Positions 1,517 to 15,908 of a DNA stretch of 64,000 bases are shown here, one piece after another. Made by a program: the position numbers and the translations under genes. The stretch spans positions 29,899 through 93,898 of the forward strand of contig NZ_RCOM01000002.1 in the NCBI RefSeq assembly GCF_003667225.1, read 5' to 3'. The notes beneath the pieces were generated by a model. That model was not told where the DNA came from, did not search any database, and was given only the letters and a program-made list of their open reading frames with translations. The stretch is from Kocuria rhizophila (GTDB lineage: Bacteria; Actinomycetota; Actinomycetes; Actinomycetales; Micrococcaceae). The number at the start of each line of letters is the position of its first letter. The first letter of the stretch is position 1.

Positions 1517-1546
1517 GTGAAACTACTGGTCAGGCTGTCGTACTGT
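1517..1546 (+). promoter_or_regulatory. Predicted promoter of the mini-CRISPR RNA
   Basis: GTGAAA (1517-1522) and TACTGT (1541-1546, fitting TANNNT) are separated by 18 bp. A start about 7 bases downstream falls at 1552-1554, exactly where the first degenerate repeat begins. That coincidence supports a dedicated short transcript reading toward cas3. The boxes are imperfect, so this is a prediction. Confidence 0.45.
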
Positions 1547-1551
1547 GGTGG

Positions 1552-1628
1552 GCAGTTCCCCGCGGTGCGGGGGTGAGCCCGCTCTGGTTTTGACGTGCTC
1601 GTGCTCCCCACGCTGGTGGGGCTCAAGC
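1552..1628 (+). ncRNA. Degenerate mini-CRISPR (crRNA-like regulatory RNA) upstream of cas3
   Basis: Two degenerate copies of the array repeat flank a 20-nt pseudo-spacer. Repeat 1 (1552-1579) keeps the CCCCGC/GCGGGG stem but has a 3-nt loop (GGT) instead of CCTs 4-nt loop, and ends GTGAGCC where the array repeat has ATGAGCC. Repeat 2 (1601-1628) begins GTGCTCCCC like the array repeat. Its stem reads CCCCAC/GTGGGG: a G-C pair of the array repeat has become A-T on both sides, a compensatory change that keeps the Cas6e hairpin. The pseudo-spacer is 1581-1600. Known relatives are degenerate mini-CRISPRs whose crRNA-like products guide Cascade to promoters (CreA antitoxin RNAs, CreR-type cas autoregulators). 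Its own array partner lies 9 kb away at 10963. Confidence 0.8.
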
Positions 1629-1657
1629 GGTTACCAAGGCCGGTGGAAAAAATGGGG

Positions 1658-1674
1658 AACGCTCTAGTTTTTAC
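1658..1674 (+). promoter_or_regulatory. Predicted Cascade/mini-crRNA target site in the cas3 promoter region
   Basis: GCTCTAGTTTTTAC (1661-1674) matches the first 14 nt of the pseudo-spacer, GCTCTGGTTTTGAC (1581-1594), except at positions 6 and 12. Those are the positions known to be flipped out and unread in type I-E Cascade. After position 14 the match ends, which should allow binding but not full R-loop formation or Cas3 cutting. The preceding bases are AAC, a plausible I-E PAM. TAGTTT (1665-1670) within the site could be the -10 box of the cas operon, so a bound Cascade would block transcription of cas3 at 1747. Confidence 0.7.
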
Positions 1675-1746: not shown

Positions 1747-4700
1747 GTGAAACTCACGATGGACGCCTGGCAGCTCTGGGCCAAGACTCCGTCGGAGCGC
1801 GCACGGGGAGTGGAGGAACTGGGGGTGCGGGAGTGGCTGGCACTCATGCAGCATCTTCGTGATGCCGCGGACGTGGGGGAGCGGCTCGTCGCCGAGTGGC
1901 TCCCCGGGCAGCTGCAGGATCGTCTTGCAGGTATCTGTGGCGGTGACCTCGACCAGGCTGCTCGGTTGGTGGCTCTCCTCTGCGGTGTCCATGACATTGG
2001 CAAGGCGGACGTGGCCTTCCAGAGTCAGATCGACGGCTCCCCGGAGCACGGCTGGTTGTGGGACCAGGTGCGCTCCCTCCCCAGCTGTCCTCCTCACAGG
2101 GACGGCGTGCCCGTGCCTAAGCCCCAGCACGCCGAGGTCTCAGATCTCATCCTGCGACGGTGCTTCGCCCAGATCGTCCCGGACGCGAACCCGGCTGCCA
2201 TCAGATCCGTCACGGTCACCGCAGGGTGCCATCACGGCCGCCTGGGTGAACTGGGCCCCCTCACGGGGCCGGGCGGTGGGCGCGCGCACCAGCTGTCCCT
2301 CTGGCTGGACCGCCACGGAACGGCCTGGAGTCAGCTGTGGGACCAGATGGTCCACGACATCATGGATCGGACGAGAGCTCAGACCGTTCTTGAACAGCTC
2401 TTCCGCGCGGGGGGCCTGGGCATCGCGGACCAGATGATGCTGTGCGGTCTGGTGACCATGGCGGACTGGATTGCCTCCAACCAGGAACTCTTCCCACTCA
2501 GTGAGAGCGGGCGGCATGACAGCGATGGAACGCGCGCGGACAGGGCCCTCGAGCAGCTGAAGCTGACCCGCGCATGGGTGCCCGACGACGTCGTTGCGCC
2601 GTCTTTCCAGCGACGCTTCGGCTGGCCCGAGAGTGCGTCGCTGCGTCCCTGTCAGAGTGCTGCTGTCGAGGCTGCCACGACGTCGCAGGGCCCCCGCCTG
2701 GTCGTCATCGAGGAGGAGATGGGACAGGGGAAGACGGAAGCCGCGCTCATGGCGGCCGAGATCATTGCGGGCCAGCGTGGAGGCGGGGGAGTGGCGTTCG
2801 CACTGCCCACCATGGCCACGGCGGACTCCATGTTCGCCAGGGTCAAGTCCTGGGTGGAAACCCTCGAAATGGATTCGAATGTCCCGCACTCCCTGTTCCT
2901 GGGCCATTCCCGGTCCTGGCTGGAGCCGCGGAACGAGAAGCTCATCCGGCAGACACGGGCAGTGGGCGCCCAAGGCGGCCAGAGCGTTGTCGCCCACGAG
3001 TGGTTCACGGGCAAGAAGGGGATGCTCGCGGAGTTCACGGTCAGCACCATCGACCAGGTGCTGATGGCTGCACTCTGCACCCGGTACGTGACCATGCGCC
3101 ACCTGGGTCTGGCGGGCAAGATGGTGATCCTGGATGAGGTTCACTCCTACGACGTCTTCACGTCCAGCTACATGGAGCGGACGCTGACGTGGCTCGCCGC
3201 GCACGGGGTGTCCGTCATCCTGCTCTCTGCAACCCTGGCCTCCGGGCTGCGAGGTCAGTTGGAGGCCGCCTATCGCTCCGGGCTGGGGGCCAACCCACGA
3301 CCGCATCTCGACTCCGCCCTTGGCCCAGTGGAGCCGCAGGTTCGAGGCAAACTGGCCGCAAAGGCGGGGACCGGGGGGCCTCGTGGCGCGGGAGAGGCCG
3401 TGGCGGCGGCGTCGGTCCCCGCCTATCCGCGGATCTCCGTCACTGGGTCGAGTGGTACGCACATCACCCCCATCACCCAGCGCGCGACGCACCGTCGCGT
3501 GCGGATGAACCTGGTGCCGGACGACCTCGAGAGTCTTGTCAACCTCGTGGCCTCGCTTGCCGAGGACGGCGGGGTGGTGGGGGTGGTGTGCAACACCGTT
3601 CGACGTGCGCAGGAGGCCTACGGGCAGCTTGTGGAGCACTTCGGTGAGGACGTCGTGGAGCTGCACCACTCCCAGTTCACCGCCTGGGACAGGTCCGAGC
3701 GGGAGCACCGGCTGGTGGCCGAACTGGGCCCTGCGGCGCACCGTGGCACGGGAAGACCCGCGCGGCGGGTTCTCGTGGGAACGCAGGTGCTCGAACAGTC
3801 CCTGGACATCGATCTGGACCTCCTGGTCACGGACCTGGCCCCGGCGGACAGCCTGGCGCAAAGGGCCGGTCGGCTCCACCGCCATGAGCGGCCGGACGCG
3901 GACAGGCCACGCGCCATGCGGGAGGCGCTGGTCTACATGCGGGGTGTGGATACCTCCGGGGGCCTGCCGGAGTTCGAGTCGGGGGCGGTGGGCATCTACG
4001 GGGATCGAGTCCTGCTGGCCACCTTCGCTGTCATGCAGCCGTACCTCTCCGGCGAGCCGTGGTGTCTGACCCACGAGCTGGAGTTCGTGGTCGAGGAGAC
4101 CTACCGGGGGGATCTTCGTGTCCCGGATTCCTGGCAGGACGTGTATGAGGCGGCGCGAGCGGAGGAAACCCAGAGAATGGCTGAAGCCCGGCACAAAGCG
4201 GGGACATTCCAGCTTGTAACGCCCGCCGAGAGCCGCGGTGACATGCGCCGCGCCCTCGAACGGATGATCGCCTCGGATCCGGACCGGAGCGATTCGCTGG
4301 CCGCGGCCCACGTGCGTGACATCGAGCCCTCTCTTGAGGTGCTCGTGGTGCAGGAACGGGACGGACTGCTGAGTCCGCTCCCATGGATCTTGCCGGGAGG
4401 AGCCGCGCGGGGAGAGTGGTTCCTCTCGGAAATGGCAGCGCCGCCTCCGCGCTTCGCTCGCGCCGTGGCCATGAGCACGCTGAGACTGCCGAGGTGGTTG
4501 GTGGCACCGTGGGAGCTCGACCGAGCCATCGCCGAGCTGGAGGCGCAGGGGATTCGGTCCTGGCAGGAGGACTTCCGTCTGCGGGGGCAACTCGTGATCC
4601 GGCTGGACGAGCAGCTGCGCGGGCGCATTCTGGGCAAGCCATTCGGCTACGACCGTGGGGTGGGGATCCACCGCGTGGAGGAGTCCGAACCGGTCGGTGG

Positions 4701-4764
4701 CCTTGTCGACGACTACGTAGATTTCGACGTGTGGGACACAAAGGAAGAAGAGGGATTTCGGTGA
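1747..4764 (+). CDS. cas3: Cas3 nuclease-helicase, type I-E
   Basis: About 1005 residues. The N-terminal HD nuclease domain shows VHDIGK (residues 82-86) and CHHG; the helicase shows Walker A GQGKT (about 325), DEVH (about 463), LLSATL and QRAGRLHRH. It is therefore the usual single-chain HD plus DExH Cas3, recruited by target-bound Cascade to unwind and degrade DNA. I chose GTG 1747 because AGGAG lies five bases upstream and the family-like LWAKT follows closely; ATG 1696 would add 17 residues without a good ribosome binding site. The stop overlaps the cas8e start by four bases. It is the first gene of a cas operon preceded by the mini-CRISPR. Confidence 0.97.
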   Translation: MKLTMDAWQLWAKTPSERARGVEELGVREWLALMQHLRDAADVGERLVAEWLPGQLQDRLAGICGGDLDQAARLVALLCGVHDIGKADVAFQSQIDGSPEHGWLWDQVRSLPSCPPHRDGVPVPKPQHAEVSDLILRRCFAQIVPDANPAAIRSVTVTAGCHHGRLGELGPLTGPGGGRAHQLSLWLDRHGTAWSQLWDQMVHDIMDRTRAQTVLEQLFRAGGLGIADQMMLCGLVTMADWIASNQELFPLSESGRHDSDGTRADRALEQLKLTRAWVPDDVVAPSFQRRFGWPESASLRPCQSAAVEAATTSQGPRLVVIEEEMGQGKTEAALMAAEIIAGQRGGGGVAFALPTMATADSMFARVKSWVETLEMDSNVPHSLFLGHSRSWLEPRNEKLIRQTRAVGAQGGQSVVAHEWFTGKKGMLAEFTVSTIDQVLMAALCTRYVTMRHLGLAGKMVILDEVHSYDVFTSSYMERTLTWLAAHGVSVILLSATLASGLRGQLEAAYRSGLGANPRPHLDSALGPVEPQVRGKLAAKAGTGGPRGAGEAVAAASVPAYPRISVTGSSGTHITPITQRATHRRVRMNLVPDDLESLVNLVASLAEDGGVVGVVCNTVRRAQEAYGQLVEHFGEDVVELHHSQFTAWDRSEREHRLVAELGPAAHRGTGRPARRVLVGTQVLEQSLDIDLDLLVTDLAPADSLAQRAGRLHRHERPDADRPRAMREALVYMRGVDTSGGLPEFESGAVGIYGDRVLLATFAVMQPYLSGEPWCLTHELEFVVEETYRGDLRVPDSWQDVYEAARAEETQRMAEARHKAGTFQLVTPAESRGDMRRALERMIASDPDRSDSLAAAHVRDIEPSLEVLVVQERDGLLSPLPWILPGGAARGEWFLSEMAAPPPRFARAVAMSTLRLPRWLVAPWELDRAIAELEAQGIRSWQEDFRLRGQLVIRLDEQLRGRILGKPFGYDRGVGIHRVEESEPVGGLVDDYVDFDVWDTKEEEGFR

Positions 4765-6404
4765 GTGATCAGACATTCAACCTGTTGCGTGAACCATGGA
4801 TTAAAGTGCGCCACAATGACGGGGTCGTGAGCGAGGTTGGACTCCTGGAGCTGTACGAGCGGGCTTCGGAGTTCACGGATCTCGCCGGTGAATCGCCCAC
4901 TCAGGATCAAGCGGTGTTCCGGACTCTGGAGGCGGTTCTGATCCGCGCGCTGCGCTGGCACAACTTCTTCGCTCCGGGCTCCGATCCGGTCGAGGTCTGG
5001 GAAGACGTTCAGGGGGCGCCGGAGCTCGGTGAGCTGGTGGACAAGTACCTCGTCGAACAGGAAGCGCGGTTCGACCTCTTCGACCCCGTGGCGCCGTTCT
5101 TCCAGGTCGCGGATCTCCGAACGGCCAAGGGCGAGCACCCGGACGCCTCTGTGCTGATTCCTGACGTGGGGCCGGGGCTCTTCTCGACCTCGACCGCAGC
5201 GGCAGGACGTCGGCTTCCCACCGCCGTGGCCGCGCGGTGGCTCATCTCGACCCAGGCCTACGACATCTCCGGGATCAAATCCGGTGCCGTGGGTGATCCC
5301 CGAGTCAAGGGAAGCAAGGGGTATCCCATCGGCACGGGCTGGGCGGGAGCTATCGGTTCGGTTCAAATCCTGGGGCCGACGCTGCGGGACACATTGGTTC
5401 TGAACCTCCCGGTCGAGGAACTGCTCAGGGAATTCCAGGACATCGAGGCTGATCTCCCGCCGTGGGAACGCGCACCGAATGGCGCAGCGCCTCGCGCCGT
5501 GGAAGAGGTGCTGCCCGAGGGCGTGGTCGATGTTCTGACGTGGCAGCAGCGGAGAATACGCCTGTTCCCCAGCACTGACGGAAAATATGTTGAGGGTGTC
5601 CTGATCTGCAATGGGGACAAGGTCCAGCGGGCAAACAACTTTGCGGACCCCACCACGGCCTACAGATATTCGGTCGTTCAGTCGAAGAAGGCCGGTATGA
5701 ACGTCTTCTTCCCCAAGGCGCACGATCCTGAGCTGACGGTCTGGCGTGGGATCCAGAGCATCTTCTCGGAGGACGGCACGGAGCCGGGGCAGGACAAGAA
5801 GCCTGCCCTGGTGACTCAGCTCCGGACGGACCTCGCGTTGCCAATCGCCCAGAGATACGGGAAGGAACGCACGATGGTGCGGCTCACCGGTGTCAGCTAC
5901 GGAACCCAGGACGCCGTCGTCAGCAGCGAGATCTCCGAGACCTACCCCGTCAACGTGCGGCTCCTGGGAGATGACGCAGGGCAGCTGCGGGAAACGGCAG
6001 TGCGGGTGATTCAGCGGGTCATGTCCTTCCGCGGCAGCATGTCGTGGTTCCACAAACAGCTGCTCGTCTGCGCCGGGGCCTCACCCGAGGAAGCGCCGAC
6101 AGCACCCGTTCAGGCATGGCTGGCAGCACTCGAGACGGAGTTCGTGGAGTGGTTGAGCTACCTGGGGGACCTGCCCGATCCACGGGACGCCGAAGAGGAG
6201 TGGGCCCGCCGCATGGTCGCGGTGACTCGACGGTTCGTGGAGCAGGCCGTGGATGCGGCGGGGCCCCGTGCGGCTATCGGCCGCAGTGAACAGAGCGAGG
6301 TGGGAAAGATGATTCTGCACTCGTCCGCGCGGTACGAGGCGTGGATCATGTCGAAACTTCACGACAACCTGGAGATTTTGAAAGGAGAGGTGAGCACATC
6401 ATGA
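4761..6404 (+). CDS. casA: Cas8e (Cse1/CasA), large subunit of Cascade
   Basis: A 547-residue protein starting at GTG 4761, which overlaps the cas3 stop. The opening FNLLREPWIKVR is the family signature, and RRIRLFPS and a long C-terminal four-helix region (from about residue 400) fit Cse1. In type I-E complexes this subunit reads the PAM, opens the DNA and docks Cas3. Coupling to cas3 and cse2 by overlapping codons implies balanced synthesis. In the proposed mini-crRNA repression complex, this subunit would recognise the AAC flanking the cas3-promoter site. Confidence 0.96.
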   Translation: MSDQTFNLLREPWIKVRHNDGVVSEVGLLELYERASEFTDLAGESPTQDQAVFRTLEAVLIRALRWHNFFAPGSDPVEVWEDVQGAPELGELVDKYLVEQEARFDLFDPVAPFFQVADLRTAKGEHPDASVLIPDVGPGLFSTSTAAAGRRLPTAVAARWLISTQAYDISGIKSGAVGDPRVKGSKGYPIGTGWAGAIGSVQILGPTLRDTLVLNLPVEELLREFQDIEADLPPWERAPNGAAPRAVEEVLPEGVVDVLTWQQRRIRLFPSTDGKYVEGVLICNGDKVQRANNFADPTTAYRYSVVQSKKAGMNVFFPKAHDPELTVWRGIQSIFSEDGTEPGQDKKPALVTQLRTDLALPIAQRYGKERTMVRLTGVSYGTQDAVVSSEISETYPVNVRLLGDDAGQLRETAVRVIQRVMSFRGSMSWFHKQLLVCAGASPEEAPTAPVQAWLAALETEFVEWLSYLGDLPDPRDAEEEWARRMVAVTRRFVEQAVDAAGPRAAIGRSEQSEVGKMILHSSARYEAWIMSKLHDNLEILKGEVSTS

Positions 6405-7033
6405 CCAAGACATCAGTATCGGTGCGCGAAGAAGAAATTACGCCGGGACCAGCGGCGAAGAAGAGAACGCTGGATGCCGCCGTCGGGACCTACGTCGCCG
6501 GACTGCAGCGGGACTACCTGGGCGGGCGGGAGAGCTCCGCCCGGGCCACCCTGGCGCGGCTGCGTCAGGCCGTGGACGAAGCGCCCGGCGTCAACCCGGA
6601 CGTGTGGCAGACAGTCCTGGAGATCCTTCCCGAGCAGTTCATCGGATCCCGGGACCAGCCGACAAAGGGTGAATGGGCGGCTCATTTGGCTCTCACGTTG
6701 TACGGGGTGCACCAGCAGGGCAACAACACACCAATGCACGAGCCCGGGGTCACCTTCGGAACCGCGATGGGCAGGCTGATGCGTGAGCGTCCCTCGGCGA
6801 AATCACGCTACGACGCCCTGCTGAGCGCCAGTCACTTCGCCGGACGCAGGAACTATCTGCGCAGCCTCACCGGGCTGCTCTCGACCGACGGGATCCCCGT
6901 GGACCACGGCCGGTTGGCTCTGGACCTTTTCCGGCTGCAGAGCGCCGACCACAAGAACTCTGTGGTGCGGGTCTGGGGGCGTGACTTCTATCGCGCATTC
7001 GCCCACCGCGTCACCGAGAAAGCATCCGACTGA
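6401..7033 (+). CDS. casB: Cse2 (CasB), small subunit of Cascade
   Basis: A 210-residue helical protein starting at ATG 6401, overlapping the cas8e stop (ATGA). It is Arg/Lys-rich with a GTAMGRLMRERPS segment and TGLLSTDGIPVDHGRLALDLFRLQ, typical of Cse2. Two copies line the belly of type I-E Cascade and stabilise the R-loop by holding the displaced strand. The first 20 residues (TKTSVSVREEEITPGPAAKK) look disordered, so the start is less certain than the frame. Spacing to cas7 is 26 bp. Confidence 0.93.
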   Translation: MTKTSVSVREEEITPGPAAKKRTLDAAVGTYVAGLQRDYLGGRESSARATLARLRQAVDEAPGVNPDVWQTVLEILPEQFIGSRDQPTKGEWAAHLALTLYGVHQQGNNTPMHEPGVTFGTAMGRLMRERPSAKSRYDALLSASHFAGRRNYLRSLTGLLSTDGIPVDHGRLALDLFRLQSADHKNSVVRVWGRDFYRAFAHRVTEKASD

Positions 7034-7059
7034 TTCCCTCCCTCCGAAAGGAAAAAATC

Positions 7060-8202
7060 ATGACCACGTACATCGATTTTCATGCACTGCAGACCCTCGC
7101 CCCCAACAACATCAACCGAGGCGAGGACGGCGCCCCGAAAACGGCCTTCTTCGGTGGTGTGCAACGTCAGCGGATCTCATCGCAGGCCCTGAAAGCGGCT
7201 CAGCGACGCAGCTTCGCCGACTACCTGGACCGGTCGGAACTGGGAACTCGCACCAAGAGGGTCGTGGAGCTGGTCGCCCAGCGCATGGTGGAGATCGACT
7301 CCACCGCAGACTACGACGATGCCCTGACATCGGCCGAGGCGGCATTCAAAAAGGCGGGCATCAATGTGAGTGCCCCCAAGGCCAAGAAGTCGGGCACCGA
7401 GCCCAAGGCACCAGCGGCGGGTTACCTGGTCTTCCTCGGCTACCACCAGGTGGACAGGTTGGCCCGCGTGCTCCTCGAGCGGGGGGAGGCCGGCTTGGCG
7501 AGCAAGAAAGAGGCTCAGGAACTCCTGGACACCGAGCACGCTGTGGACGTGGCTCTGTTCGGGCGCATGGTAGCGGAGGACGCCACGTTGAACGTCGATG
7601 CTGCGGTGCAGGTGGCACATGCCCTGGGCACCCATGCTGCGGTTCCCGATTTCGACTACTACACGGCCATCGACGAGATGGAGCGTCTCAACGAGCAGAC
7701 GGGTGCGGGCATGATCGGCACCCTCGAGATGATGTCCTCCACGGTGTACCGCTATGCGACGCTCAACGTGGACCAGCTCGTGGCCAATCTCGGCAGCGTG
7801 GACGCGGCCGTCCGTGCGGCGGAAGCCTTCGCAGCCACGTTCATCGAGAGCCTTCCGTCAGGGAAGCAGAACACATTCGCCGCGCATTCCTTGCCGGAGC
7901 TCGTCTCGGTGGCGGTCCGAGACCGTCGTCCGGTGAGCTACGTGAATGCGTTCGAGAAGCCGGTTGAGGTGGACGAAGGCGGCAACCGGCGAGTGGCTGC
8001 CACGGCTGCGCTCGCGAGTGAGGCACAGGGTGTGGAGGACACCTACGGCATGTCGCCTCTGCACTCGTGGGTCATGACCGTGCCTGCGCTTCGTGAGAGC
8101 GCCGAGGGACTGGGCGAGAACGTCAACCAGAAGCGACTGGTGGAGGCTGTTGGAGAGGCTGTTCGGGAGGCCTCGGACGCTGGCGCCGAGGCCGCACGAT
8201 GA
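7060..8202 (+). CDS. casC: Cas7e (Cse4/CasC), backbone subunit of Cascade
   Basis: 380 residues starting MTTYIDFHALQTLAPNNINR, the hallmark start of type I-E Cas7, followed by QRISSQALKAAQRR. It forms the six-copy filament that binds the crRNA spacer and kinks out every sixth base. That periodicity makes the mismatches at positions 6 and 12 of the mini-CRISPR match tolerable. ATG 7060 has AAAGGA upstream. The stop overlaps the cas5 start (ATGA). The middle (residues 90-110, KKAGINVSAPKAKKSGTEPK) is a Lys-rich loop insertion. Confidence 0.96.
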   Translation: MTTYIDFHALQTLAPNNINRGEDGAPKTAFFGGVQRQRISSQALKAAQRRSFADYLDRSELGTRTKRVVELVAQRMVEIDSTADYDDALTSAEAAFKKAGINVSAPKAKKSGTEPKAPAAGYLVFLGYHQVDRLARVLLERGEAGLASKKEAQELLDTEHAVDVALFGRMVAEDATLNVDAAVQVAHALGTHAAVPDFDYYTAIDEMERLNEQTGAGMIGTLEMMSSTVYRYATLNVDQLVANLGSVDAAVRAAEAFAATFIESLPSGKQNTFAAHSLPELVSVAVRDRRPVSYVNAFEKPVEVDEGGNRRVAATAALASEAQGVEDTYGMSPLHSWVMTVPALRESAEGLGENVNQKRLVEAVGEAVREASDAGAEAAR

Positions 8203-8903
8203 GTGTTCTGATCCTGCGTCTGAAGGGTCCGCAGCAGTCGTGGGGCACCTCGTCCCGCTACAGGACCCGCGAAGCCGGGACGGAACCCAGCAAGTCCGGC
8301 GTGATCGGTCTGCTCGCCGCCGCGCAGGGACGATCCCGCGCGAGTGAGCTGACGGATCTGCTCGAGCTGGGTTTCGGCGTGCGAGCCGATCAACCGGGTC
8401 GGCTCATGGTCGACTACCACACGGCACGGGTGCGCGGGGCCAAGAACTCCTCGCTGTCGTCGCGTCACTACCGGGTTGACGCCGCCTATACAGCCGCAAT
8501 CTCTGGCCCGGACAGCCTAGTCGCCGCTTTGGCGGAAGCCATCGACTCGCCGCGTTTCCCGCTGTATCTGGGCCGGCGGGCGTGCCCCGCCTCGGTGGAT
8601 TTGCTGGGCGGGGTGCTCCCGGGCGACGACGTCGAGGCAACCCTCCGGGACGTCGACGCCACTCCATGGCTGGCCTCCGATTGGTACCGCAGGGAAGCGG
8701 CGAAGGTCGTCTATTTGCCACTGGCCAGGGACGCCTGTGCTGACGAAGTTGGCGAAACGGTTCAGGACGTGCCCGTGAGTTTCGACCCCCGCCATCGACT
8801 CTACGATGCCCGCGCCGTGGTGCGTCCGGCTCCTGTGATGATCGAGAATCCCGACGGCGTGGATGTTAAGGACGACTTCTTCCAGACAGTCAAGGAGGGC
8901 TGA
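8199..8903 (+). CDS. casD: Cas5e (CasD), crRNA 5'-handle cap of Cascade
   Basis: 234 residues beginning MSVLILRLKGPQQSWGTSSR, the standard Cas5e opening, followed by TEPSKSGVIGLLAAAQG. It is a RAMP-fold protein that holds the 8-nt 5' handle of crRNA and contacts Cas8e. Translation is coupled to cas7 (ATGA) and to cas6 (TGATG). The handle predicted from the array repeat is ATGAGCC plus position 29; the mini-CRISPR handle differs by one base (GTGAGCC). Confidence 0.96.
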   Translation: MSVLILRLKGPQQSWGTSSRYRTREAGTEPSKSGVIGLLAAAQGRSRASELTDLLELGFGVRADQPGRLMVDYHTARVRGAKNSSLSSRHYRVDAAYTAAISGPDSLVAALAEAIDSPRFPLYLGRRACPASVDLLGGVLPGDDVEATLRDVDATPWLASDWYRREAAKVVYLPLARDACADEVGETVQDVPVSFDPRHRLYDARAVVRPAPVMIENPDGVDVKDDFFQTVKEG

Positions 8904-9592
8904 TGTACTTCAGCAGGATCCAACTCAATCCGCAGCGGCGTGAGTCCCGAAAACTGCTCGCCAACCCTCGGGCCATGCACGGCGCGGTCGAGGCGTGCTT
9001 CCCACCCGCCCGTGATGCTCAGGTGGGGGCCCGGAATCTGTGGCGCGTGGACGCAGACGGGGCAGACGTGCGGTTGTACATGGTGTCGCCTGACGTCCCG
9101 GACATGCAGCACCTGGTGGAGAACGCAGGGTGGGAGAGTTCGCCAGCCGAGACCACTGACTACGACCGGTTCCTGGATGGTCTGAGGACGGGTCAGGAGT
9201 ACAGCTTCCGCGTGACGGTCAACCCTGTGAAGCGCCAGTTCGTTCAGGGACAGCGCGGAAAGCTCATGCCCCACCTCACCGAGGAGCAGCAACTGGCCTG
9301 GTTCCACGAACGTTCCTCCAGCTGGGGGTTTGAGACTCTCGATTTTCCCCAGCAACGGGAAATGCCGAACGAGGAGATCACCATCAAGTCGTTACGCGTG
9401 GTCAAGCGGCACGACCGGGTGTTCGGTAAGCAGGATGGCGACGGTCGACGGACGGTGACTCAGCGCCAGGTGACCATCGCGGGTCAGCTGCGCGTCACTT
9501 CCGCGGGCCTGTTGAGATCCCACCTGACGGGTGGAATGGGCCGGGGCAAGGCGTACGGGTGCGGACTGATGACGCTGGCCAGGGTCCGGTGA
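8903..9592 (+). CDS. casE: Cas6e (CasE), crRNA-processing endoribonuclease
   Basis: 229 residues. His in AMHGAVEACFP (about residue 26) is at the place of the catalytic His of Cas6e, and the C-terminal GMGRGKAYGCGLMTL is the glycine-rich RNA-binding loop. It cuts at the 3' base of the repeat hairpin and stays bound as part of Cascade. Both the array repeat (CCCCGC/GCGGGG) and the degenerate repeat 2 (CCCCAC/GTGGGG) keep a six-pair stem for it. The start overlaps the cas5 stop. Confidence 0.95.
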   Translation: MYFSRIQLNPQRRESRKLLANPRAMHGAVEACFPPARDAQVGARNLWRVDADGADVRLYMVSPDVPDMQHLVENAGWESSPAETTDYDRFLDGLRTGQEYSFRVTVNPVKRQFVQGQRGKLMPHLTEEQQLAWFHERSSSWGFETLDFPQQREMPNEEITIKSLRVVKRHDRVFGKQDGDGRRTVTQRQVTIAGQLRVTSAGLLRSHLTGGMGRGKAYGCGLMTLARVR

Positions 9593-9596
9593 CCTC

Positions 9597-10544
9597 GTGA
9601 CTGGCGCTCCACCTCCGGAGAGCAGGGAGCTCGTCAGGGCGGAAGAACGGTTGTCTTTCGTGTACCTGGAGCGCTGTGTCGTGCATAGGGACAGCAACGC
9701 GATCACTGCGACGGACGAGACTGGGACCCTTCACATCCCAGCTGCCATGATCGGTGCTCTGCTGCTGGGGCCCGGTACACGCGTCACTCATGCGGCCATG
9801 AGCCTGATCGGGGCCAGCGCGGCAAGCGTGGTGTGGGTGGGTGAGGGTGGTGTTCGGTGCTATGCGGCTGGCCGGCCCTTGGCCCGGTCAAGCCGACTCC
9901 TGGAGGCTCAGGCGAGGGCATTTGCCAATCAGCGGCAGAGACTGTCCATCGCGCGGCGAATGTACGAATACCGGTTTCCCGGCGAGGATGTATCCGCCCT
10001 GACCATGCAGCAGCTTCGCGGGCGAGAGGGTGCGCGGGTCAGGCAGCTCTACCAGCGTGAGGCTGCGCGGACCGGTGTCGAGTGGGTGAAGCGGGACTAC
10101 CGTCCCGGTGATCTCTCTGGGTCGGATCCGATCAATCAAGCTCTGTCCAGCGCCAACACGTGCTTGTACGGGGTGGTGACGGCTGTCATCCATGCTCTGG
10201 GCATGAGCCCCGGGCTCGGGTTTGTCCATGTGGGGCACGACCAGAGCCTCGTCTACGACGTGGCGGACCTCTTCAAGGCAGAGACGACAATCCCGGCCTC
10301 TTTCGACGTGCTGGCCCAGGGCAGCGAAGATCCCGTGAATGACGTGAGAAGGCTTTTGCGAGATCAACTCGTCACCGGGCACGTGATGGATCGGTGCGTA
10401 GATGTCCTGCGTGAGCTGTTCCTGAGCGCTGAAGAGCGGGAGGAAGTTATGCGAATTGTTTACGACGACGCCATGTCGCTGTGGTCTGGTCGGCGTGAAG
10501 GCCGCATGCCGACGGGGCAGAACTTCTCTCGGGAGGACTCATGA
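9597..10544 (+). CDS. cas1: Cas1, spacer-integration nuclease, type I-E
   Basis: 315 residues from GTG 9597, four bases after the cas6 stop. The metal site is intact: Glu in LRGREGARVRQL, His in GFVHVGHDQSLVYD and Asp in VADLFK. With Cas2 it forms the integrase that inserts new spacers at the leader end of the array. The late operon position next to cas2 and the leader is typical. The presence of cas1-cas2 together with 80 spacers indicates that adaptation has been active. Confidence 0.96.
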   Translation: MTGAPPPESRELVRAEERLSFVYLERCVVHRDSNAITATDETGTLHIPAAMIGALLLGPGTRVTHAAMSLIGASAASVVWVGEGGVRCYAAGRPLARSSRLLEAQARAFANQRQRLSIARRMYEYRFPGEDVSALTMQQLRGREGARVRQLYQREAARTGVEWVKRDYRPGDLSGSDPINQALSSANTCLYGVVTAVIHALGMSPGLGFVHVGHDQSLVYDVADLFKAETTIPASFDVLAQGSEDPVNDVRRLLRDQLVTGHVMDRCVDVLRELFLSAEEREEVMRIVYDDAMSLWSGRREGRMPTGQNFSREDS

Positions 10545-10897
10545 TCGTCTTGGTCCTCTCAGCCTGCCCGGTAGGGCTCCGTGGGGATCTGACGAAATGG
10601 CTGTACGAAGTCTCTGCCGGGGTTTTCGTAGGTAAAGTCAGTGCGCGGATTCGGGAGCACCTGTGGGAGCGAGTGCTGGAGTCATCTGGCTCGGGGCGGG
10701 CCATCCTTGTATGGAATGCCAGGGGAGAGCAGGGCTTGACGTTCTCTGTCAAGGACCACCACTGGGACCCAGTGGATCTCGATGGGTTGACCCTGATGAA
10801 ACGCCCCTCGCGCACCAAGCCCCGATCTTCTCCCGAGCTCAGGCCGGGGTGGAGCAAAGCCGGTGCCCGTCGCAGGTTCGGCGACAAAAAGACCTGA
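10541..10897 (+). CDS. cas2: Cas2e, adaptation partner of Cas1
   Basis: 118 residues starting MIVLVLSACPVGLRGDLTKW, the E. coli-type Cas2 N-terminus, with SAGVFVGKVSARIREHLWERV following. It bridges two Cas1 dimers in the integration complex. ATG 10541 overlaps the cas1 stop. The C-terminal tail (residues 85-118) is basic and Ser/Pro-rich (KPRSSPELRPGWSKAGARRR). This is the last gene of the operon; the leader follows directly. Confidence 0.95.
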   Translation: MIVLVLSACPVGLRGDLTKWLYEVSAGVFVGKVSARIREHLWERVLESSGSGRAILVWNARGEQGLTFSVKDHHWDPVDLDGLTLMKRPSRTKPRSSPELRPGWSKAGARRRFGDKKT

Positions 10898-10962: not shown

Positions 10963-13900
10963 GTGCTCCCCGCGCCTGCGGGGATGAGCCCCCTGGGGCG
11001 GCGCGGGTGATGCCGTTGTCCACGGTGCTCCCCGCGCCTGCGGGGATGAGCCGGATGCGGACTACACCGTGTTCATCCTGCTCATGTGCTCCCCGCGCCT
11101 GCGGGGATGAGCCCGCGTCAGCCTTGTTCACCAGCAGGGTGGTGTAGTGCTCCCCGCGCCTGCGGGGATGAGCCCATCTCCCGTGCTCTCCGTCCCACGT
11201 GTTCGCAGTGCTCCCCGCGCCTGCGGGGATGAGCCCCAGGTCCCGGGCCATGACCCGCAGGTTATCCCGTGCTCCCCGCGCCTGCGGGGATGAGCCGTGC
11301 AAGTTCGCGGACCCCGAGATGCGAGCCAAGTGCTCCCCGCGCCTGCGGGGATGAGCCCGGGCGGGCTGGCATCTTGTTCGTGCCCGCCTGGTGCTCCCCG
11401 CGCCTGCGGGGATGAGCCCTGTGCACGGCGCATGTAGAATCGGTCATAGCCGTGCTCCCCGCGCCTGCGGGGATGAGCCCTGGTACGTGCTCACCGACGT
11501 GGACTTGTACCGGTGCTCCCCGCGCCTGCGGGGATGAGCCCTTCACCTGTAGGTACTGCGGAGCGAAAGCCCCAGTGCTCCCCGCGCCTGCGGGGATGAG
11601 CCCGGGAAAGAGATCGCGGCCATGTGGCAAGGGTGGTGCTCCCCGCGCCTGCGGGGATGAGCCCTGTGCCCACTGGGACGGCATCGCCCCGGCGTTGTGC
11701 TCCCCGCGCCTGCGGGGATGAGCCCGCCATGTCGAGGGTTTGGGTGGCTTTGTCGGAGTGCTCCCCGCGCCTGCGGGGATGAGCCCAGGGCGTACGTGCT
11801 GGACCTGTACAACCCGGCGTGCTCCCCGCGCCTGCGGGGATGAGCCTCTCGCGCAGCTCGTCCTTCTTCAGGTACGCGGGTGCTCCCCGCGCCTGCGGGG
11901 ATGAGCCCTAGTGGCCGCAACGTACGACTACGACCAATGGGTGCTCCCCGCGCCTGCGGGGATGAGCCGGGTGCCGGTGCGGGCAGCACGGTCACCCAGG
12001 CGTGCTCCCCGCGCCTGCGGGGATGAGCCGGTTACGGCCCATCTGGTCCAGGTTCGCCTCAGGTGCTCCCCGCGCCTGCGGGGATGAGCCGTCCCGGAAA
12101 AACATCGCCGCCGCCTTCGACGGGTGCTCCCCGCGCCTGCGGGGATGAGCCGGTGACCGCGTCGGGCCAGAAGGCATTGGAGGCGTGCTCCCCGCGCCTG
12201 CGGGGATGAGCCGCCTGGAAGTCAGCCATGGTCTAGTTCCTGTCCGTGCTCCCCGCGCCTGCGGGGATGAGCCCATCATGCTCCCACCATGGCACGCCAC
12301 ACGCGAGTGCTCCCCGCGCCTGCGGGGATGAGCCGTACGCGCAACATCACCGTTCTCAAACTGGATAGTGCTCCCCGCGCCTGCGGGGATGAGCCCGTGA
12401 CGGGGGCGATGTCCGCGGAGATCGTGCGGTGCTCCCCGCGCCTGCGGGGATGAGCCCCCATCGTGCATGTCGCGGACGTGGGTGGACCCGTGCTCCCCGC
12501 GCCTGCGGGGATGAGCCCTTCCTCGCGGACACCGCAGACATCTGGGGTCCGGTGCTCCCCGCGCCTGCGGGGATGAGCCCGTGCCGGTGAGGTAGTTGTT
12601 CTTCCCGTTGAGGTGCTCCCCGCGCCTGCGGGGATGAGCCGTCATCCGGCAGGGTCACACGGGCGTCATCCCCGTGCTCCCCGCGCCTGCGGGGATGAGC
12701 CCAGCGACACGGTCAAGATGTTCTGGACGGTCAAGTGCTCCCCGCGCCTGCGGGGATGAGCCGAAGAAGCCCACGATGGCCGGGACCCGATCCTGGTGCT
12801 CCCCGCGCCTGCGGGGATGAGCCCTCGGGTGGTGGGACCGCGCAGTGGGGTGTGTAGTGCTCCCCGCGCCTGCGGGGATGAGCCCTTCACCCCGTCACCC
12901 GCCTCACGTGCACCTCGGTGCTCCCCGCGCCTGCGGGGATGAGCCCCGACGCCGAGCTCTTCGCCAGCAGACACGGCCGTGCTCCCCGCGCCTGCGGGGA
13001 TGAGCCCGGGGTCTCGTGGACGATCGGGAGGAGCCCCCCGTGCTCCCCGCGCCTGCGGGGATGAGCCCTGATGGGCTCCTTCACGGCATCCTTCAGCTTG
13101 GTGCTCCCCGCGCCTGCGGGGATGAGCCCGCCGGGAACGTCGAGGCATGGCCCAAGTTCGTGTGCTCCCCGCGCCTGCGGGGATGAGCCGGAGACCTCCG
13201 CGGATCATGAACGTATCCGCGAGTGCTCCCCGCGCCTGCGGGGATGAGCCGGCGGGCACGGCGCAGGCGGCGGCGGACGGGAAGTGCTCCCCGCGCCTGC
13301 GGGGATGAGCCGTTGCTCGCCCTGTCTGGGAGGAACCCGTCATGGTGCTCCCCGCGCCTGCGGGGATGAGCCCTTCTTGGGGTCCTTGCCAGCGGCGATG
13401 TAGTTGTGCTCCCCGCGCCTGCGGGGATGAGCCGCACTTCGGGGGGCTGGGCATCTCTGGCCAGGAGTGCTCCCCGCGCCTGCGGGGATGAGCCCGCGGA
13501 CGCCAGATCGAGGGCGTACCCCGTGACGTGCTCCCCGCGCCTGCGGGGATGAGCCGATCCTTCTCCGCCTGAGCAATCGCCTCCCGACGTGCTCCCCGCG
13601 CCTGCGGGGATGAGCCGCTCCCCAACACGGCCCTGGTGTTGGCTGTGCAGTGCTCCCCGCGCCTGCGGGGATGAGCCCCCCGTGTCCACCAGCCACGACG
13701 GCTTCCCGAAGTGCTCCCCGCGCCTGCGGGGATGAGCCAACGATGCGGGGTCGGCGTCTCGGGCGATCAACGTGCTCCCCGCGCCTGCGGGGATGAGCCC
13801 CGCCACCGCACACGAGACTGCTCACGGTCGGCGTGCTCCCCGCGCCTGCGGGGATGAGCCCGGCAACTCCACCTCCGTGACGATCCACAGGTCGTGCTCC

Positions 13901-15868
13901 CCGCGCCTGCGGGGATGAGCCGACACCATCGCCCGGTGGATCAACCCCGCCACCGTGCTCCCCGCGCCTGCGGGGATGAGCCCCACGAAGGAGAACTGAC
14001 CATGGCAGCACAGGCGTGCTCCCCGCGCCTGCGGGGATGAGCCGGAGAACTTCGCGGAGGGCTTCTTCCGGTCCGTGTGCTCCCCGCGCCTGCGGGGATG
14101 AGCCGTTGCCCGGCACACGGGCGGTCTTCACGGTGCCGTGCTCCCCGCGCCTGCGGGGATGAGCCGGGCGCGGGGCACAAGGCGCGTGCGGCGACTGTGT
14201 GCTCCCCGCGCCTGCGGGGATGAGCCTCGGCTGATGGCCGTCGACAGGTTCGCGAGCGCGTGCTCCCCGCGCCTGCGGGGATGAGCCGCCCTGCCAGCGC
14301 ATCGACGTCGCCGACGAGGCGTGCTCCCCGCGCCTGCGGGGATGAGCCGTGGGAGCCCTCCGCGTCGAACTGGGCGCGGGTGTGCTCCCCGCGCCTGCGG
14401 GGATGAGCCCAACCCGCCGCGAAGTCCCACGAGCGGGCTGAGGTGCTCCCCGCGCCTGCGGGGATGAGCCGCCCAGCGCGTTCGTCGTGCTGCTGGCGCT
14501 AGCGTGCTCCCCGCGCCTGCGGGGATGAGCCGCCCAGCGCGTTCGTCGTGCTGCTGGCGCTAGCGTGCTCCCCGCGCCTGCGGGGATGAGCCCGTGGACG
14601 CCGAGCCCGAAGACCTCGAGGAGTTGTGCTCCCCGCGCCTGCGGGGATGAGCCGGCGGCCTCGGTGGTCATGACCACGGGCGCGGTGTGCTCCCCGCGCC
14701 TGCGGGGATGAGCCGATCAACGACTTCTGGAAGGGCGACGACATCAAGTGCTCCCCGCGCCTGCGGGGATGAGCCCGCGTCCTTCAGCAGTCCCAAACCG
14801 GCCTTGAAGTGCTCCCCGCGCCTGCGGGGATGAGCCGGCGGGGATGGACAAGCCTGGTGGGGGTCTGCCGTGCTCCCCGCGCCTGCGGGGATGAGCCCGG
14901 TCACGGGCTTCTTGCGGTACGTCTTGGGTTGGGCTCCCCGCGCCTGCGGGGATGAGCCGCGGTGGACGGGCAGGTGCAGCTGCAGCTGCCGGTGCTCCCC
15001 GCGCCTGCGGGGATGAGCCCCGCAGGGCAACCTGGTCGTTCTCGGCCAGGCTGTGCTCCCCGCGCCTGCGGGGATGAGCCTGCCCCGGATGCGGCGGGCG
15101 GGGTCCCTGGCCCGTGCTCCCCGCGCCTGCGGGGATGAGCCCTGGTCAGAGAGCGGAGATACGAGGATCACGGTGTGCTCCCCGCGCCTGCGGGGATGAG
15201 CCCGAGCGGAACTCGGCGGCGGCTTCCAGCGGCGAGTGCTCCCCGCGCCTGCGGGGATGAGCCGTCCGTGGCGCCGTGCAGCGCCCCGCCCTGGAAGTGC
15301 TCCCCGCGCCTGCGGGGATGAGCCCGCCCTACCCACCTCGGGGCGGGACAGCGCTGCGGTGCTCCCCGCGCCTGCGGGGATGAGCCGACGGTGCTCTCCA
15401 ACACCTAGGCCGGGATTAAGTGCTCCCCGCGCCTGCGGGGATGAGCCGCTCGGCCCCGGCGTCCTCACCATCGGGGACAGGTGCTCCCCGCGCCTGCGGG
15501 GATGAGCCCTTCCGGGCTTCCTCCAGGGTCTCCCACTCGGTGTGCTCCCCGCGCCTGCGGGGATGAGCCCGGAGCGCCGGGGGACTCACAGAACTCGAAC
15601 GCGTGCTCCCCGCGCCTGCGGGGATGAGCCCCTCCCCTCCCTGCCCCGCGGCAAGAGTTCAAAGTGCTCCCCGCGCCTGCGGGGATGAGCCCCGTTGCCG
15701 GTCACGTTCCGTCAACGGCTCCCCGTGCTCCCCGCGCCTGCGGGGATGAGCCGAGACCACCGCCGCGCTCGCGGCGATCCGCCCGGTGCTCCCCGCGCCT
15801 GCGGGGATGAGCCCGGCGGGGGCGGTTTCGGCTTGGCCGTCGAGCTGGTGCTCCCCGCGCCTGCGGGG
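10963..15868 (+). CRISPR. Type I-E CRISPR array, 81 repeats and 80 spacers
   Basis: The 28-bp repeat begins GTGCTCCCCGCGCC and ends TGCGGGGATGAGCC, with stem CCCCGC/GCGGGG. I stepped through every start from 10963 to 15848: 75 intervals are 61 bp and five are 62 bp, so spacers are 33 bp (34 in five cases). The base after the 28-bp repeat is C or G in 76 of 80 units. One spacer is present twice in a row (14471-14503 and 14532-14564). The repeat at 14931 has GG for GT at its start. The last repeat (15848) is intact for only 21 bp, then diverges, as expected at the leader-distal end. Spacers are GC-rich and several look like phage coding starts. Confidence 0.99.
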
Positions 15869-15908
15869 TTCGAACACGGCCGGGACAAAACGGCGAGTTC
15901 CTCTTCCA

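Follow-up and report, generated by a model that had tools for sequence, protein, structure and literature searches.

The 64,000-nucleotide stretch of Kocuria rhizophila DNA analyzed here (the window) carries, at 1552-1629, a mini-CRISPR of the CreR type. Its 20-nt guide is predicted to direct the neighboring type I-E Cascade to 1661-1674, and the short R-loop formed there would prevent transcription without activating Cas3; we hold with high confidence that the cas operon is likely self-repressed in this way. The guide matches the DNA upstream of its own cas genes at every readable letter of the first 14, so that Cascade would likely repress its own genes. RNA-guided autorepression, which the initial annotation had put forward as the simplest model, is the best reading of the sequence, as tests of chance, 6-nt phase, PAM, register, and co-variation all favor it. 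By its sequence, the unit belongs to the CreRs, which have been described before in type I-E, and the principle of autorepression is already known. What is new relative to CreR as described in reviews is the existence of two guide sizes, repeated switching between them, and a trade-off between seed loss and longer pairing.

A Mini-CRISPR Adjoins a Complete Type I-E Gene Set

Alignment to the repeat of the main array resolves the unit, which lies on the plus strand, into one spacer flanked by two degenerate, divergent repeats. Repeat 1 (1552-1580) includes the 5′ handle GTGAGCCC at 1573-1580, the 20-nt guide of the predicted CreR occupies 1581-1600, and repeat 2 (1601-1629) contains the hairpin CCCCAC-GCTG-GTGGGG and has 8 mismatches in 28 nt relative to the array repeat. 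Both resemble the exact repeats of the main CRISPR array (10963-15875, plus strand), which holds 79 exact 28-nt repeats from 10963 onward and ends in a copy at 15848 that carries 5 mismatches. Among the 77 array spacers measured, 73 are 32 nt and 4 are 33 nt. An ordinary CRISPR array was ruled out as the identity of the unit, given its divergent repeats and single 20-nt spacer versus the near-identical repeats and 32-33 nt spacers of such arrays. As a separate observation on the array, the base directly 3′ of the 28-nt repeat is C in 44 cases, G in 31, T in 3, and A in 1 (n = 79), a bias toward C and G that parallels the CreR PAMs AAC and AAG and may record the acquisition PAM.

The mini-CRISPR adjoins the genes of a complete type I-E effector, eight genes at 1747-10897 on the plus strand. 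The first, cas3 (1747-4764; NCBIfam TIGR01587 and TIGR01596), has a GTG start at 1747, and NCBIfam models assign cas8e, cse2, cas7e, cas5e, cas6e, cas1e, and cas2e, the Cascade and adaptation genes, to 4761-10897. The set is tightly packed, with gaps between neighbors from cas3 to cas2e of -4, -4, 26, -4, -1, 4, and -4 nt. Repression would be expected to cover the whole cas set.

The mini-CRISPR would be transcribed rightward, possibly from a -10 element (TACTGT, 1541-1546, plus strand) that was picked out by eye only and was not called by a consensus scan. Its transcript would be cut by Cas6e and loaded into Cascade. In the predicted minimum-energy fold of the precursor, the two repeats pair with each other and do not make separate Cas6e hairpins, and the fold shows no unusual stability (z -0.33). 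Rfam, at its gathering thresholds, and ARAGORN gave no entries in the window.

The Guide Matches DNA Upstream of cas3

The initial annotation had described a 12-of-14 match with mismatches only at positions 6 and 12, preceded by AAC and lying 73-86 bp upstream of the cas3 GTG. Alignment bears this out. The guide GCTCTGGTTTTGAC (1581-1594) and the target GCTCTAGTTTTTAC (1661-1674, plus strand) are identical at 12 of 14 positions, in a pattern of five matches, one mismatch, five matches, one mismatch, and two matches (identity at 1-5, 7-11, and 13-14, difference at 6 and 12), and none of the six bases after position 14 matches. The PAM AAC sits at 1658-1660 (plus strand), the commonest PAM in the survey described below (18 of 29 loci), and the target runs from 86 to 73 bp upstream of the GTG at 1747. 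Judged from this position, the target site is likely the cas3 promoter. The overlap with a possible cas3 -10 held only in part: a TANNNT element (TAGTTT, 1665-1670, plus strand) can be seen by eye within the target, but a sigma-70 consensus scan of 1480-1800 called no promoters. A TA at target positions 5-6 was also considered as a general -10 start across 28 aligned targets and was dropped as too inconsistent.

We conclude that the match is not due to chance, a point for which the earlier reading had proposed a shuffling test of the 6-periodic pattern. When the gap between the unit and cas3 (1629-1746) was dinucleotide-shuffled and both strands were searched, the ten seed positions (1-5 and 7-11) behind AAN arose in 3 of 100,000 shuffles and all 12 readable positions of the 14 in 0 of 100,000. 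Ungapped matches at 12 or more of the 14 positions, wherever the mismatches fell, arose in 15 of 20,000. In the 2,701,536-base assembly, AAN followed by the ten seed positions occurs once, at the window target. Across the 77 array spacers of this system, the best site behind AAN in 1501-1806 matched at no more than 8 of the 10 seed positions.

Relatives Carry Their Own Matching Pairs

To survey relatives, we assembled 202 usable cas3 upstream regions, mostly actinobacterial and with duplicates included, from Cas3 searches of genomes and a named scan (the best 80 of at least 567 relatives); some Cas3 matches that were partial or on contig ends were excluded. A candidate was defined by a GC-rich hairpin, the handle NTGANCCN, one spacer, and a second hairpin, in a locus holding no more than two similar repeats. 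This rule returned 57 candidates, 54 of which were distinct once identical guides were dropped. Loci were selected by Cas3 alone; tblastn found Cas8e in 26 of the 31 target-bearing loci, and several of the five negatives (L018, L024, L078, L188, and L192) have little sequence past cas3.

In 29 of the 54 distinct one-spacer candidates, an AAN-flanked target upstream of cas3 pairs at nine or all ten of the seed positions. Within -800 to +60 of cas3, the best AAN-flanked site scored 10/10 in 17 candidates and 9/10 in 12, with lower scores of 8 in 3, 7 in 3, 6 in 9, and 5 in 10. When every guide was instead paired with every other locus, 10/10 was reached in 0 and 9/10 in 5 of 2,858 combinations. 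The remaining 25 candidates have no target of at least 9/10 upstream of cas3. They include L004, from the genus of the window, and L152 (Bifidobacterium boum), whose 10/10 targets fall near the cas3-cas8e junction, roughly 2,900 and 3,119 bases past the start of cas3, respectively, and are the only 10/10 sites outside -800 to +60 in 423,220 bases of locus sequence. In both, the mini-CRISPR is upstream of cas3 and the sole 10/10 target is near that junction, an arrangement that would suit repression of the Cascade genes alone. A 9/10 site near +2,666 in L164, mismatched at position 2, was not counted as a target. Some of the other target-less candidates look like chance hairpins inside coding sequence; L009 (7/10), L035 (8/10), and L095 (8/10) are apparently real units whose target is weak or absent.

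The match is specific in phase, PAM, and register. In an earlier set (n = 38), omission of positions 6 and 12 yielded 15 perfect matches, compared with 0 in each of five other phases, no perfect match had all of 1-12 paired, and the dinucleotide AA as PAM gave 15 perfect matches with 0 for each of the 15 other dinucleotides. When the start of the guide was slid from -8 to +12, shift 0 gave matches in 17 loci, shift +7 in 1, and the other 19 shifts in none; this concentration at shift 0 indicates that the 8-nt handle sets position 1. The PAMs in the 29 loci are AAC (18), AAG (5), AAT (5), and AAA (1), and the targets lie on the plus strand relative to cas3 in 21 and on the minus strand in 8, at distances of -594 to -41. 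In L060 and L062, the guide has a further AAN-flanked site, scoring 9/10, near the 10/10 site, possibly a doubled operator; in L062 it is on the opposite strand to the 10/10 site.

The initial annotation had also called for co-variation of spacer and target in related genomes. Besides the 29 candidates with their own matching targets, paired changes occur between the Rothia loci L041, whose sequence is identical to that of R. nasimurium 136RC1 across 4,509 bases, and L043. The two have repeat 1, the PAM, and positions 1-5 in common: positions 7, 9, and 11 are changed in both guide and target, position 6 in the target only, and position 12 in the guide only. Between L053 and L054, all 20 nt of the guide are conserved and, within 1-14, the target differs at position 6 only. 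L008 and L034, neighbors on the Cas3 tree, have different guides, each with its own target. This co-variation evidence comes from a few sister pairs. In three further Rothia loci (L267, L269, and L270), the cas3 match is reduced to 144 residues with one stop, and the guide and target are unchanged from L041. Two of these three genomes also carry a longer, more distant cas3. An orphan CreR of this kind might work with a different Cascade present in the cell.

Within the genus of the window, five other genomes have a Cas3 match, and a mini-CRISPR was found in L004 only. None was found upstream of cas3 in L005, L006, or L020. In the closest relative (L003), the contig begins inside cas3, and searches for the upstream contig missing from this genome gave chance-like matches only.

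Pairing Profile across 29 Loci

A pairing profile was compiled over the 29 loci in which the target precedes cas3, for which positions 1-5 and 7-11 had been used in selection and the other positions had not. Positions 1-5 and 7 match in 29 of 29 loci each, position 8 in 28, position 9 in 22, and positions 10 and 11 in 27 each. Matches at 13, 14, 15, 16, and 17 number 21, 22, 18, 18, and 14; pooled, these positions match in 93 of 145 cases, far above 25%. Positions 19-23 match in 39 of 103 cases, from which we take it that some loci keep extra pairing there, and positions 25-32 match in 30 of 104. Positions 6, 12, and 18 match in 6, 5, and 6 of the 29 loci. A test for avoidance of pairing at these flipped positions gave no support for it, the counts being near the 25% expected; the flipped positions are free, not avoided.

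According to the earlier reading, relatives in which spacer and target diverge outside positions 6 and 12 would speak against the model. That rule proved too strict, as one seed mismatch is present in 12 of the 29 loci: 7 at position 9, 2 at 10, 2 at 11, and 1 at 8. These 12 loci pair more at 13-17 than do the 17 without a seed mismatch (one-sided Mann-Whitney p = 0.0013), with two exceptions that have only 1 and 2 matches there. Position 9, with 7 of the 12 single mismatches, is the most tolerated site of seed mismatch.

Guides Come in Two Main Sizes

In the 31 target-bearing loci, guide lengths are 20 nt (13 loci), 21 (3), 26 (1), 30 (1), 32 (8), 33 (4), and 34 (1). Most guides thus fall into one of two length classes, 20-21 nt or 32-34 nt, which differ by two Cas7 footprints. 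Of the 18 guides shorter than 32 nt, 14 fall short of that length by a multiple of 6 (p = 2e-8 versus an expectation of one in six, with shared ancestry ignored). Guide lengths in the candidates scoring below 9/10 upstream are scattered from 13 to 43 nt; the candidate rule therefore did not impose the size peaks. Guide size has switched repeatedly on the Cas3 tree. On a quick tree of the 31 loci, with L188 (30 nt) left unlabeled, the short and long states require 10 changes, of which at least 4 are forced by starred branches, and this number is no fewer than in shuffles (mean 9.9). Within one genus, the window guide is 20 nt versus 32 nt in L004.

Shortened crRNAs in E. coli type I-E give complexes with fewer subunits, according to work cited in PMC10551041, and a 20-nt CreR may assemble a Cascade with two fewer Cas7e. 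A broader model follows these lines, which we hold tentatively and consider somewhat more apt to fail than to stand. Type I-E CreRs would come in two quantized sizes, and the 20-nt class, the window included, would form a natural mini-Cascade, two Cas7e short and dedicated to repression, so that one cas set would yield two machines: a full Cascade able to recruit Cas3 and a shorter one limited to blocking. Selection would confine each natural guide-target pair to a narrow range of pairing, sufficient for binding and insufficient for cutting, and longer pairing at 13-17 would compensate for the loss of a seed pair.

Mechanism and Alternative Explanations

In the proposed mechanism, the CreR would direct Cascade to its target at 1661-1674, and an R-loop spanning at most 14 positions there would block cas transcription. 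Cas3 would not cut, as pairing ends at 14, and repression would be lifted as Cascade is diverted by crRNAs or anti-CRISPRs. For type I-B, PMC10989794 and PMC10551041 describe short guides that bring about repression and no cleavage; per the latter, a 2023 paper, there was no evidence that shortened crRNAs guide repression in E. coli type I-E. In type I-F1, Cas2/3 is described as triggered only by R-loops of full length or longer, whereas the start of cleavage in type I-E is reportedly less restricted (PMC7296934), and the title of a paper cited in the same source states that shortened-spacer E. coli Cascades can still interfere. Therefore, safety from cutting in type I-E may lie in limited pairing more than in guide length.

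Each of four other explanations has some evidence behind it. The arrangement might be a CreTA-like module, in which a tiny toxin RNA encoded within 1675-1746 is what the guide represses, cas3 is merely the next gene, and loss of Cascade releases the toxin. The repeat and seed layout of CreA is the same, and CreT toxins are described down to six codons (PMC8501985), yet the next recognized gene, 73 bp past the target, is cas3 (at a floor of 60-aa ORFs, above the size of tiny toxins), and in relatives the target either precedes cas3 or sits close to the cas3-cas8e junction; we consider this reading very unlikely. Still less probable is a decayed array remnant with an accidental likeness to the cas3 upstream region. 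The degeneracy of both repeats and the presence of the unit, within the genus, in two of the genomes with cas3 would suit such decay, but it is already contradicted by the shuffles (3 and 0 of 100,000), by the 29 of 54 candidates with their own targets versus 5 mispairings in 2,858, and by the paired changes.

A similarly slight chance attaches to a decoy, a repeat-like RNA that only sequesters Cas proteins, as the solitary-repeat RNA anti-CRISPRs (Racrs) do, and whose spacer is irrelevant. Racrs are indeed described as degenerate repeats without an array (PMC10651486); against this, the spacer of the mini-CRISPR is itself constrained in phase, PAM, register, and co-variation. Identity with a Racr was likewise rejected, as a Racr is a solitary repeat in a viral genome and the window has two repeats and a constrained spacer beside host cas genes. 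We give equally little credence to the idea that Cascade binds as described with a different outcome, such as activation of cas or repression of the mini-CRISPR itself. The consensus scan called no promoter, and both the strand (21 plus, 8 minus) and the distance (-594 to -41) of the targets vary, which leaves some room for it, but the reported CreRs and CreA repress (as described in PMC13131331, PMC12737573, and PMC8501985) and the window target sits between the mini-CRISPR and cas3. Autorepression of the cas operon by CreR-guided Cascade is the reading we prefer to all four.

Relation to Known Systems and Implications

The long-form tracrRNA of type II-A autoregulates Cas9. It resembles the predicted CreR in that a noncanonical RNA lets the effector repress its own genes, and it differs in having a single-protein effector and no mini-CRISPR. 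CreRs, cas-regulating RNAs reported for types I-B, I-E, and V-A (PMC13131331; primary source Liu et al. 2023, 10.1016/j.chom.2023.08.005), are described as crRNA-like RNAs from a mini-CRISPR with limited complementarity to a cas promoter (PMC13131331, PMC12737573, PMC12948488), relieved by crRNA competition and anti-CRISPRs (PMC13131331, PMC12737573). The window has one spacer between two degenerate repeats, limited complementarity behind AAC, and pairing at 1-5 and 7-11, the last a seed feature taken from CreA. The Cas effector is the expected repressor here too, with relief expected from crRNA competition or anti-CRISPR proteins. In contrast to CreR as known here through reviews, the window guide is 20 nt, 12 nt shorter than most array spacers.

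CreA of the type I-B CreTA module, as described in PMC8501985, has the same single spacer between two divergent degenerate repeats, a PAM, and pairing at 1-5 and 7-11, which are required, with 6 and 12 dispensable; its target is a toxin RNA gene, whereas the window target precedes cas3 and no tiny toxin was seen there, at an ORF floor of 60 aa that such toxins fall below. Engineered shortened type I-B crRNAs, which turn cutting into repression (PMC10989794, PMC10551041), likewise have a short guide that would repress without cutting. They are engineered and fully complementary, whereas the window unit is natural, type I-E, and partly complementary.

These results place the window among relatives that carry different guide-target pairs, matching in the same manner as the window pair and in the same layout upstream of cas3 genes. 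The survey thus provides 31 naturally evolved Cascade guide-target pairs, which document the tolerance of Cascade in vivo: positions 6, 12, and 18 are free, position 9 is the most forgiving in the seed, and pairing is mostly over by position 17. The recurrence of 20-nt guides before type I-E genes, each with its own target, makes short-guide repression in type I-E directly testable.
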